A DNA stretch of 64,000 nt from an uncultured Bacteroidota bacterium (lineage in GTDB: Bacteria; Bacteroidota; Bacteroidia; Flavobacteriales; Flavobacteriaceae), in contig CACEGG010000005.1 in the NCBI GenBank assembly GCA_902559035.1, forward strand, positions 1 through 64,000, given 5' to 3'. The position numbers were made by a program, and so were the translations under genes. Shown one piece after another: positions 5,242-13,960 of the stretch (position 1 is its first letter; every line of letters begins with the position of its first letter). The notes beneath the pieces are model-generated. The model had not been told where the DNA came from and did no database searches. It saw only the letters and a list, made by a program, of their open reading frames with translations.

Positions 5242-5311
5242 AACGATATGATTATTAATTAATTAAAAGTAGTATTTTTTAAATTAAATTTTATATTTTT
5301 ATTAAATAAGG

Positions 5312-5339
5312 TTGACAGCCTTAATCTTCAAAATATTTG
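5312..5339 (+). promoter_or_regulatory. candidate Bacteroidota-type promoter for the structured RNA
   Basis: TTG (5312-5314), 17-nt spacer, AATATTTG (5332-5339; one mismatch to TAnnTTTG). Confidence 0.4.
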
Positions 5340-5435
5340 AAAACCCGTGTGGACTGGGTTTATAATATAGTCGCGGGTGGAGAGAACGCATCCGAAAAAA
5401 TCGTTACATAAGTTTAACGCCTAAAGATAATAATC

Positions 5436-5513
5436 ATGAGCGAAGAAATTATGTTAGCACTAACACAAAACAACGGACACGCAAACGCTATGAACGAAAT
5501 ATGGAAAGAATGA
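5436..5513 (+). CDS. possible 25-aa leader/micro-protein MSEEIMLALTQNNGHANAMNEIWKE
   Basis: ATG to TGA in the candidate RNA, A-rich upstream sequence; too short for the ORF track. Confidence 0.3.
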   Translation: MSEEIMLALTQNNGHANAMNEIWKE

Positions 5514-5545
5514 TTTCCATAGATTTTGTAATTTTAAATTGTTTG

Positions 5546-5574
5546 AACCCTCTTTGAAAAAAGAGGGTTTTTTT
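5546..5574 (+). terminator. intrinsic terminator
   Basis: AACCCTCTTT-gaaa-AAAGAGGGTT followed by T tract. Confidence 0.8.
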
Positions 5575-7181: not shown

Positions 7182-8045
7182 ATGAACAAAAAAATAATAA
7201 TAACATTTATAATACTTATTGTAGGATATTTTATAATAGTTTTTGGAGCAAATAGCAAAGTGAATCAAACAAATAAATCCAACGATCTTTGGGAGGTAGA
7301 TTTTAGAGACGACTTTGATACTTTTAACTTAGAAAATTGGCAAGATCAAAGAATATGGGTTAATAATGAAAAACAATGCTATGTTCCAAATGGAGATTAT
7401 AATACAAGAGAAGTAAGTGAAGGTACTCTTAAAATTAGAATAGTGAATTTAGGAGACAAAATTGAATGTGATAATTTAGATAAATTTGGTAAACAACATC
7501 CACAAACACCCTATGTGGCTGGAAGAATAGCTTCGAAAAATAGAAAAGAATTTATTAAAGGTAAATGGACCGCAAGATTGAGAGTTGTTGGAGGAAGTCA
7601 AAAAAGTATGTTTCCGGCATGGTGGATTTTAGGAGCTCAAAACAACGAATCTCCAGTTCAGGAGGAAAACGAAAATATATGTTGGCCAATGACTGGTTCT
7701 GGTGAAATTGACATTTTTGAACATCATGGAGATTATAATCCTGATCATTTTACAACAGGTGCAATTAAAAATTTAGGGGAATGTGATAAAGGTGATTGGT
7801 GGAGTTACAGAGCTGGATATGATGTCTCATTGAGTGAATTTCACGAATATTCTGTTGAGTGGGAAAAAAGTGATTTAGTTTATAGATTAGATGGGGAAGA
7901 AGTACATAGAAATATTGGCCTTGGAGATAATTATCCTGAACCTATGTTTGCTATTTTAAATTTTGCTAAAATTACTGATAACCCAATGCAGGGCGAATGG
8001 GTAATGGAAGTAGATTGGGTTAAGCACGAATTTAGAAATAATTAA
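7182..8045 (+). CDS. glycoside hydrolase family 16 (laminarinase/beta-glucanase type)
   Basis: Catalytic motif GEIDIFEHHG; HEYSVEWEKSDLVYRLDGEEV; N-terminal membrane segment. Confidence 0.9.
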   Translation: MNKKIIITFIILIVGYFIIVFGANSKVNQTNKSNDLWEVDFRDDFDTFNLENWQDQRIWVNNEKQCYVPNGDYNTREVSEGTLKIRIVNLGDKIECDNLDKFGKQHPQTPYVAGRIASKNRKEFIKGKWTARLRVVGGSQKSMFPAWWILGAQNNESPVQEENENICWPMTGSGEIDIFEHHGDYNPDHFTTGAIKNLGECDKGDWWSYRAGYDVSLSEFHEYSVEWEKSDLVYRLDGEEVHRNIGLGDNYPEPMFAILNFAKITDNPMQGEWVMEVDWVKHEFRNN

Positions 8046-8047
8046 AA

Positions 8048-8974
8048 ATGTTCAATTTTTTAAATAAAATCAAATCTCGTTTATTTCAATTTATATTATT
8101 TTCTCTGGTGTTTTATATTTTTTTTCAAATAGAAAATTTTCAGAACTTTTTATTAATTAATCTCATTTCACAAATCGTTATTTTTTTATTTATCGTTTGT
8201 TTACCTGCTTATTTTACTGATAGAATGTCATATGTAGATATAGCTTGGCCTTTTGGACTTGTTGCAATTGGTGTAATCTCATTTTTTTGTGGAGATGGTT
8301 ATTTATTAAAAAAATCAATTATATCCATGTTATATATAATTGCTGGTTTGAGGATGGGAATTGGAGCATTAATTTTATTAAAAAAAGGATATCTAAATAA
8401 AGAATTACCAAGATACAGCTATCAAAGAATTAGATGGAAAAAGAAAGGGTTTATTAATGATAAATTTTCAGTCCAATATGAAATACTTCTTCAGTGTTTT
8501 GCTAATGCAACATTCTTAGCTATTCCTGCTATTTTGATTTCTAATAATAGTTCTCAAACTTTTTCAATTATTGAAGTGATTGGGTTTTTAGTCTGGGTCA
8601 TATTTTTCTTTTTAGAACATATATCTGATTTACAAAAACAAAAATTTTTAATAAATGCAAAAAAAAATAATTTGAAAAATCAAGTTTGTAACGTTGGTCT
8701 TTGGAAATATACAAGACATCCAAATTACTTTTCTGAATGGATGATTTGGAATGGTCTAATCATCGCAAGTTTTTCATCTTTGCTAGTAAATAATTCAATG
8801 ATTGTTTTTTTAGGTACAACTACATCCTTACTTTATATTACGATTTTAATGTATCAAACTTTAGTTTTTTTAACTGGAGCTATTCCATCCGAACATTATT
8901 CATTAATAAAAAGACCAGATTATAAAAAATATAAGGAGACTACAAACATGTTCTTTCCAAATTTTTTTAAATGA
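8048..8974 (+). CDS. DUF1295 / steroid 5-alpha reductase C-terminal-like membrane protein
   Basis: Multi-TM; LWKYTRHPNYFSEWMIWNG motif. Confidence 0.85.
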   Translation: MFNFLNKIKSRLFQFILFSLVFYIFFQIENFQNFLLINLISQIVIFLFIVCLPAYFTDRMSYVDIAWPFGLVAIGVISFFCGDGYLLKKSIISMLYIIAGLRMGIGALILLKKGYLNKELPRYSYQRIRWKKKGFINDKFSVQYEILLQCFANATFLAIPAILISNNSSQTFSIIEVIGFLVWVIFFFLEHISDLQKQKFLINAKKNNLKNQVCNVGLWKYTRHPNYFSEWMIWNGLIIASFSSLLVNNSMIVFLGTTTSLLYITILMYQTLVFLTGAIPSEHYSLIKRPDYKKYKETTNMFFPNFFK

Positions 8975-10276: not shown

Positions 10277-10612
10277 TTATTTAAATCTTGTACACCAATT
10301 ATTAGTAGTTTCGGTAATGAAATTGTCTGATAGTTTTATTTTATATCTAAATTCATTTGTTCCTTCGTTTATTTCTATAGTAGCAACTTCAATTATTTCT
10401 CTTGAACAATTATCGTCACAATAGCAAAACTCTGCTTGACTTTCGCTAGTGTTAGATGATAAGTATGCCTTTTGAGATCCTCCTCCAGTATTTTCATTTG
10501 TCAATGTTATATAATTGACCTTTTCATAAGAGAAAGCCTGAGTGTAGTCAGATGTCTCATCTGAGCTACATGATATTGTAATTAATGTTAGTAATAAAAT
10601 TATTTTCTTCAT
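10277..10612 (-). CDS. small lipoprotein, hypothetical
   Basis: Signal peptide plus lipobox LITISCSS; Cys-containing. Confidence 0.55.
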   Translation of the reverse strand: MKKIILLLTLITISCSSDETSDYTQAFSYEKVNYITLTNENTGGGSQKAYLSSNTSESQAEFCYCDDNCSREIIEVATIEINEGTNEFRYKIKLSDNFITETTNNWCTRFK

Positions 10613-11706
10613 TATATTAAATTTTTAATTTTTAATTCTTTTTTACATTTTTTCCAGTAACTAAAAAAAGATTTAACATTTTCATGACTGTCAAACATCC
10701 AATCCCTTGAGTCTTCATTTCCTTTGTATTCATTTAATGGATGTTCTTTAAAAAATATGTTATTAATATTATAATTATTCATTAAATCAATAAACGAGCC
10801 AACATATAATTGAACACCCTCAATATTTTTTGAAAGATCTATGGCAAATTGTAGACATTTTAATGAGACAGGGTATTGTTTAAATATTTTTGGTTCTAAT
10901 AAAAACACTCTGTTGTATTTTTTTTCTTGCCTCCAGTGAGGATCTAAATTGTAATAATTATAGATTAAGGTATCTAGGTTATCTTCAATTTTTAATGTTT
11001 TATTTTCTGGTAATTTTGTTGATAGATTTATATTTGCAGTCTCAATTAACGACTCAGGTATGTCTAATGAATCGAACTTAGAATATTCTATATCTAGAAA
11101 AGTATTTTTTTGATTTGTGTAGCAATATTTATTTATATTTTCTTGATTTGCGAAGTATTTTTTATTACTGTTAGACCCACATACCCATTGCCAACTAAGC
11201 GCATTACTTCCCCAGTCTCCGTCAAGTAAGTTGTAATACATCCACTGCGCGGGTTTTAACCAATGGCTTTTTGCAATATTACATGCTATTGAAGCTAGAT
11301 ACATCCTATTGTGATTGTGCATGTAGCCTGTATTGTAAAGCTCTTCTATGCTTTCGTCAATAGCTGTGATTCCACAGTTATTTTCAAAAAGAGCTTTAGA
11401 AAATGAGTTATTGAGGACATCTTCTTGAGGTTTTTTTAAATCATAATTGATTAGATGTCCTTTTTGCTTCCAAATTATTTGCCAATAATCTCTCCAACAT
11501 AATTCCTGAATAAATTTTTCTACTTTCCAAAAAGGAATATTTTTTTCTAGAATTTTTTCAAAAATAAATTTAGTAGAAATCATTCCTCTTGAAATGTATG
11601 GAGATAGTCTAGTTACCGAACCATCAATAAAGTTTCTATTTTTTGAATATTTGATTGGATCTATTAAATCAATTTTGTTAATGATTTCTGAATATATTGT
11701 TTTCAT
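10612..11706 (-). CDS. photolyase/cryptochrome-like FAD-binding domain protein
   Basis: SRLSPYISRGMIS-like start, ELCWRDYW, HNHNRMYLASI, DGDWGSNALSWQWVCGS are photolyase FAD-domain motifs; the usual N-terminal alpha/beta domain is absent. Confidence 0.85.
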   Translation of the reverse strand: MKTIYSEIINKIDLIDPIKYSKNRNFIDGSVTRLSPYISRGMISTKFIFEKILEKNIPFWKVEKFIQELCWRDYWQIIWKQKGHLINYDLKKPQEDVLNNSFSKALFENNCGITAIDESIEELYNTGYMHNHNRMYLASIACNIAKSHWLKPAQWMYYNLLDGDWGSNALSWQWVCGSNSNKKYFANQENINKYCYTNQKNTFLDIEYSKFDSLDIPESLIETANINLSTKLPENKTLKIEDNLDTLIYNYYNLDPHWRQEKKYNRVFLLEPKIFKQYPVSLKCLQFAIDLSKNIEGVQLYVGSFIDLMNNYNINNIFFKEHPLNEYKGNEDSRDWMFDSHENVKSFFSYWKKCKKELKIKNLI

Positions 11707-11710
11707 ATAA

Positions 11711-13960
<2,250 letters not shown>

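Follow-up and report, generated by a model that had tools for sequence, protein, structure and literature searches.

Positions 5340–5410 of the window, by which we mean the whole 64,000-nt stretch of DNA that was analysed, hold a structured RNA of ~72 nt (also given as ~70 nt) that has no counterpart in Rfam. It represents a previously uncatalogued RNA class, which is found in ocean Flavobacteria and in some of their viruses. We are highly confident that it is a structured cis leader of small-protein messages. Regulation in these abundant ocean bacteria is poorly understood. The finding gives them a further RNA class and puts names to three families of small proteins that gene finders are prone to miss.

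The core RNA and its fold

The core, on the forward strand like the other parts of the unit, consists of two hairpins with 9-nt loops, and in each loop the last four bases are able to pair just downstream. Hairpin P1 (AAACCC/GGGTTT, 5341–5361) has the loop GTGTRGACT, whose GACT (5352–5355) would pair with AGTC at 5369–5372 to form pseudoknot PK1 (5352–5372). Hairpin P2 (CGGGTG/CAYCCG, 5374–5394) has the loop GAGWGAACG, whose AACG (5385–5388) would pair with CGTT at 5402–5405 to form pseudoknot PK2 (5385–5405). Compared with dinucleotide-shuffled versions of itself, the region has the better fold (z −2.32, with 1 of 200 shuffles equally good). The core is also conserved far beyond chance, as no matches are expected in a shuffled window versus the 64 stretches that were found in a scan of species genomes.

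The evidence differs among these elements. For P1 it is covariation: among 66 distinct copies, the pair of columns 4 and 20 is UA, AU, or GC and that of columns 5 and 19 is CG, UA, or AU, with 25 and 16 double changes at the two pairs. The covariation score exceeds those of all 500 shuffles and of all slid versions of the alignment; relatedness alone could exceed the shuffle control, while the slid control preserves relatedness. In P2, 98.5% of the pairs are intact and 20 copies have exchanged a G-U for a G-C, even though the pattern used for the species scan did not fix this stem. PK1 (GACU/AGUC) is invariant in the 66 distinct copies and thus offers no covariation, and it is partly fixed by the search pattern. 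The PK2 partner CGTT, which no search pattern demanded, is invariant in the 65 distinct copies that have letters at all four positions. Both pseudoknots are therefore predicted from conservation, not from covariation, as neither ever varies. Since the positions fixed by the pattern (the P1 loop, AGUCG, and GNGANAACG) are unusable as conservation evidence from the species scan alone, it is relevant that pattern searches free of the P1 constraint gave the same loops in true, uncut copies.

A sequence-only reading of this DNA had listed the hairpins at 5341–5361, 5374–5394, 5402–5419, and 5500–5521, an ORF at 5436–5513, and a terminator at 5546–5574, and each of these is present. Two of the hairpins nonetheless have a lesser standing. 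The one at 5402–5419 (CGTTA/TAACG, P3) is mutually exclusive with PK2, which makes it a candidate switch partner; it occurs with all five base pairs in 17 of 56 distinct copies, compared with 0.7 expected from shuffles, and is missing in many copies. The other (TATGGAAA/TTTCCATA, 5500–5521) is seen only in the two closest relatives, L002 and L003.

The same reading could match the RNA by eye to no known one, and this was borne out. The Rfam scan of the region, at gathering and at permissive thresholds, gave nothing credible (the scores of ncr952, SNORD25, and others fell far below gathering), and the search of the region for tRNA and tmRNA found none. Flavo-1 (RF01705), a candidate RNA listed for Bacteroidetes, and 6S-Flavo had been named as possible identities, and neither gave a cmscan match in the region. 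The manA and wcaG motifs are leader RNAs common to marine metagenomes and T4-like phages (PMC2864571), but they precede sugar, exopolysaccharide, and light genes, and the new RNA has no cmscan match to them.

Transcript layout and small proteins

The leader and a terminator delimit, as judged from the sequence, a discrete transcript of ~230 nt. Upstream of the leader, boxes of the form TAnnTTT[AG] occur in 49 of 63 copies (14.8 in shuffles), mostly 16–22 nt before the P1 loop. In the window, the Bacteroidetes-type −7 box TATATTTT at 5292–5299 is the probable promoter, and it lies 15 nt before an optional 5′ hairpin, P0 (TAAGG-TTGACAG-CCTTA, 5307–5323). P0-like hairpins, whose sequence varies among copies, precede 18 of the 27 copies followed by the peptide family that we call A-type (1.2 expected), none of 13 B copies, and none of 18 C copies. 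Because A-type copies carry this extra hairpin, the promoter of the window copy is likely shifted to 5292–5299. The promoter proposed earlier, TTG-N17-AATATTTG, is probably wrong, as its TTG falls in the P0 loop.

The leader is followed by a 25-aa ORF (MSEEIMLALTQNNGHANAMNEIWKE, 5436–5513) of the A-type family (xALExNQGHAxAM) and by an intrinsic terminator that closes the unit (5546–5574). Our table of units has 66 copies: the window copy, all but one of the 64 scan loci (63), copy L004 from genome G018 (replacing the cut duplicate L076), and the phage copy L095. Of these, 28 precede A-type peptides, 14 precede DUF4278-type (B) proteins, and 19 precede KYYNKTRT-type (C) proteins. Two of the other five are cut by a contig end (L041 and L068), and the remaining three stand before HypD with a decayed ORF (L035), SusC (L066), and a terminator (L045). 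The proteins under the leader are 22–69 aa long and belong to at least three unrelated families, so the RNA behaves as an independent module.

In the claimed frames, dN/dS is 0.21 for A-type ORFs (27 distinct sequences; other frames above 1.3), 0.24–0.36 for B, and 0.09 for C; by this measure the ORFs of all three families are under purifying selection. In proposing a structured RNA that carries a genuine ORF and ends in a terminator, the sequence-only reading was right. The B proteins match DUF4278 significantly, at 31–41 bits against a cut-off of 25.3. Among the 400 Flavobacteriaceae genomes sampled, only two have DUF4278, and in both the leader lies upstream of it. In the A and B copies, ~27 nt separate CGUU from the start codon, while the C-type ORFs begin 88–183 nt downstream.

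Terminators follow the ORF in 22 of 28 A, 12 of 14 B, and 7 of 19 C copies; between leader and ORF, none was found across the copies except one weak match in L032. This arrangement bears on the proposal that the element is a leader-peptide attenuator, or another kind of regulator, of the MFS sugar porter/GH16 pair downstream, a reading that we consider very improbable. The MFS synteny is preserved in genome G005 (L003), which speaks for it. Against it, the pair lies beyond the terminator, and G010, a close relative, has the unit but no MFS or GH16 gene after it; what comes directly next is a homologue of the gene at window position 8971. Elsewhere the complete unit adjoins unrelated genes, and the next genes vary. 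The peptide, moreover, is itself the conserved product, which does not fit a classical leader-peptide attenuator.

Among the genes beyond the unit, the protein at window 7182–8045 that had been read as GH16 has no Pfam match at 1e-5, yet the GH16-typical motif GEIDIFEH is visible in it. Farther on, a photolyase-type FAD-binding protein and a KatG-like peroxidase (10612–11706 and 11798–13960) adjoin each other on opposite strands.

The discrete transcript would also suit an RNA that acts in trans, free-standing or with the peptide as a second product. In L045 (4725–4830), an intrinsic terminator stands directly 3′ of the leader and there is no ORF, which speaks for this reading; a free-standing sRNA was also the other identity offered earlier. 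It seems to us possible but decidedly unlikely, because 61 of the 66 copies retain a small ORF from one of three unrelated families (two more are cut by contig ends), which a purely trans-acting RNA would not need.

Two further copies, both on contig C1 of genome G326, have unusual neighbours. L035 (~70.0 kb) is a leader with a tiny decayed ORF between hypF and hypD-hypE. L066/L099 (~335.3 kb) is the most divergent cellular copy and lies ahead of a SusC/SusD pair; it may be a retargeted leader.

Distribution in marine Flavobacteriaceae and phages

The species scan covered 84,980 species. Of the 64 stretches with the motif, 63 are labelled marine Flavobacteriaceae, Flavobacteriales, Bacteroidetes, or similar; the exception is one contig labelled Bdellovibrionota, which is probably misbinned. 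BLAST in relatives showed that equivalents of 5344–5418 are kept in genomes where the remaining region is unrelated, and in L004 and L005 the leader is ahead of a small protein differing from that of the window.

A pattern search with up to three mismatches in 301 Flavobacteriaceae genomes found five genomes with the leader, one of them with three copies; a sixth candidate, L011, was a chance match. The covariance search found eight strong genomes among 400 of the family; in the wider sets, 398 genomes from the order and 396 from the phylum, it gave nothing beyond G000. The genomes that the family search identified as carriers are small (1.3–2.1 Mb). We judged L133 (a gapped match at E 0.05) and L092, L105, L112, L116, and L117 to be chance matches. 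BLAST of the window leader in PLSDB and a search of the accessible literature for the leader sequence itself gave no match. In genome G394, at a site syntenic with L042, the sequence holds a decayed leader (L091) whose peptide ORF is lost too, and we count this joint decay in favour of a cis-acting, riboswitch-like leader.

In IMG/VR, 16 contigs carry the P2 core; two are cut 5′ of it, so 14 reach the 5′ half of the leader. L095, L096, and L119, apparently one and the same region, have the leader followed by a 22-aa YRG peptide. The other phage contigs have a variant leader (loop GAGUGAACG and CGUUGC, with P1 AGACC/GGUCU in most) followed by A-type peptides. Genes for a baseplate wedge, carbamoyltransferase, and DNA polymerase are among the neighbours, as is GroEL in L108 and L095, which suggests that the carriers are T4-like and other tailed phages; the Bacteroidetes-like promoter boxes suggest that their hosts are flavobacterial. 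A protein search turned up 13 A-type peptides in viruses, 12 of them with the leader. The other, L131 (IMGVR_UViG_3300048029_000160; MTKLEILEALEPNQGHLNAI...), lies without it among densely clustered phage genes. The phage leader gave no BLAST match in INPHARED.

An element common to phages and hosts, made of compact hairpins with fixed loops, would also fit recognition by a protein. Translation would then be repressed or activated by a protein that binds the leader, either an RNA-binding regulator or the small protein itself. We find this unlikely, and the occurrence of three unrelated protein families under one RNA makes autoregulation by the product unlikely in particular.

Comparison with glutamine riboswitches

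A conserved structured domain in the 5′ UTR of several gene families is one general mark of a riboswitch, and the new RNA has this character. We regard a riboswitch-like leader acting on the translation of small regulatory proteins as an evenly balanced proposition. The closest analogies are with the two glutamine riboswitch types. Cyanobacterial glutamine riboswitches mainly control DUF4278 genes (PMC6316151), and Downstream-peptide RNAs sit ahead of ORFs of 17–100 aa of no known family (PMC2864571). Like the new RNA, RF01704 (Downstream-peptide/glutamine-II) is a leader in streamlined marine bacteria, upstream of short conserved ORFs, and this riboswitch type is associated with DUF4278 genes (PMC6316151), but its lineage is the picocyanobacteria instead of the Flavobacteriaceae. 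The new motif has no match at E<10 to its covariance model (gathering 33 bits), and the genome search for RF01704, run without a positive control, was negative.

RF01739 (glnA/glutamine-I) precedes small proteins including DUF4278 and YRG peptides, also in marine phages, and the new RNA likewise lies ahead of DUF4278 and of ORFs of 22–69 aa. Among viral glnA-type aptamers, 109 of 116 precede ORFs of 17–65 aa, 34 with the YRG motif, at a median of 27 nt from aptamer to start codon; the A and B copies of the new RNA likewise have a spacing of ~27 nt. The two share the 9-mer GAACGCAUC and an AACG/CGUU helix, whose strands are in opposite order. A shared 9-mer of such length arose in 20 of 2000 shuffles (p ~0.01), which is only suggestive, and the RF01739 core GGAAGUAGG, between P2 and P3, is absent from the aligned copies of the new RNA; we therefore do not claim a circular permutation of the glutamine aptamer. 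The motif did not match the RF01739 covariance model (gathering 35 bits) even at E<10, and a search of ten leader-bearing genomes for RF01739 found none, while the control, Synechococcus elongatus, was detected. Since neither model recognises it, the new RNA is not filed under RF01739 or RF01704, although it may work like them. Glutamine riboswitches of the glnA type have been reported in phages of non-cyanobacterial marine hosts (PMC9004378), so elements of this kind do move.

A leader RNA paired with a DUF4278-type peptide, a combination known from cyanobacterial glutamine riboswitches (PMC6316151), is thus also present in Flavobacteriaceae and in phage contigs probably infecting them. On the strength of the published pairing with DUF4278 and short peptides (PMC6316151, PMC2864571) and of the viral glnA-type scan, we take a nitrogen-status riboswitch as the best reading. 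It is tempting to propose, tentatively, a third glutamine/nitrogen-status class, structurally unrelated or permuted, that evolved outside cyanobacteria in genome-streamlined marine Flavobacteriaceae, is carried by their T4-like phages, and controls DUF4278 proteins along with other very small regulators of nitrogen assimilation. That the ligand is glutamine or a nitrogen-status metabolite is, by analogy, possible rather than probable. If it is glutamine, one protein family would have two different RNA solutions, a testable case of convergence or permutation.

In such a model, a short, usually monocistronic message would run from the promoter through the P1/PK1 and P2/PK2 domain and the small-protein ORF to the terminator. 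The binding domain would be the two compact hairpin-pseudoknot units with their nearly invariant loops. With a small molecule bound, PK2 (AACG/CGUU) would be stabilised against the competing hairpin CGUUA/UAACG, which lies shortly before the start codon, and translation of the small protein would be set by this choice. The DUF4278, xALExNQGH, and KYYNKTRT products may be small regulators that act by binding proteins, as the inactivating factors of glutamine synthetase do in cyanobacteria.

Several facts count against the riboswitch reading. Only a minority of the associated genes encode DUF4278 and most lack a known link to nitrogen, and two copies precede HypD and SusC-like genes (L035 and L066). 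PK1 and PK2 never vary, and there is no score against RF01739 or RF01704. Nor is there a uniform expression platform, as P3 is missing in many copies and the C-type ORFs are 88–183 nt away. This inconsistency, like the start of the motif near the inferred transcription start, would suit a 5′ stabiliser or translation enhancer, in which pseudoknots close to the 5′ terminus would shield the message or aid initiation for abundantly made small proteins, with no sensing. We think this improbable, because a stabiliser would hardly seem to require unpaired loop nucleotides that are so nearly invariant.

The classification of PirA as a DUF4278 protein was also considered, and the PirA paper does not support it. 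Finally, at least 120 viral contigs (L134–L213 and further IMG/VR loci) carry glnA-type glutamine riboswitches, nearly all before 17–65-aa peptides of several unrelated families, ~30% of them with YRG.
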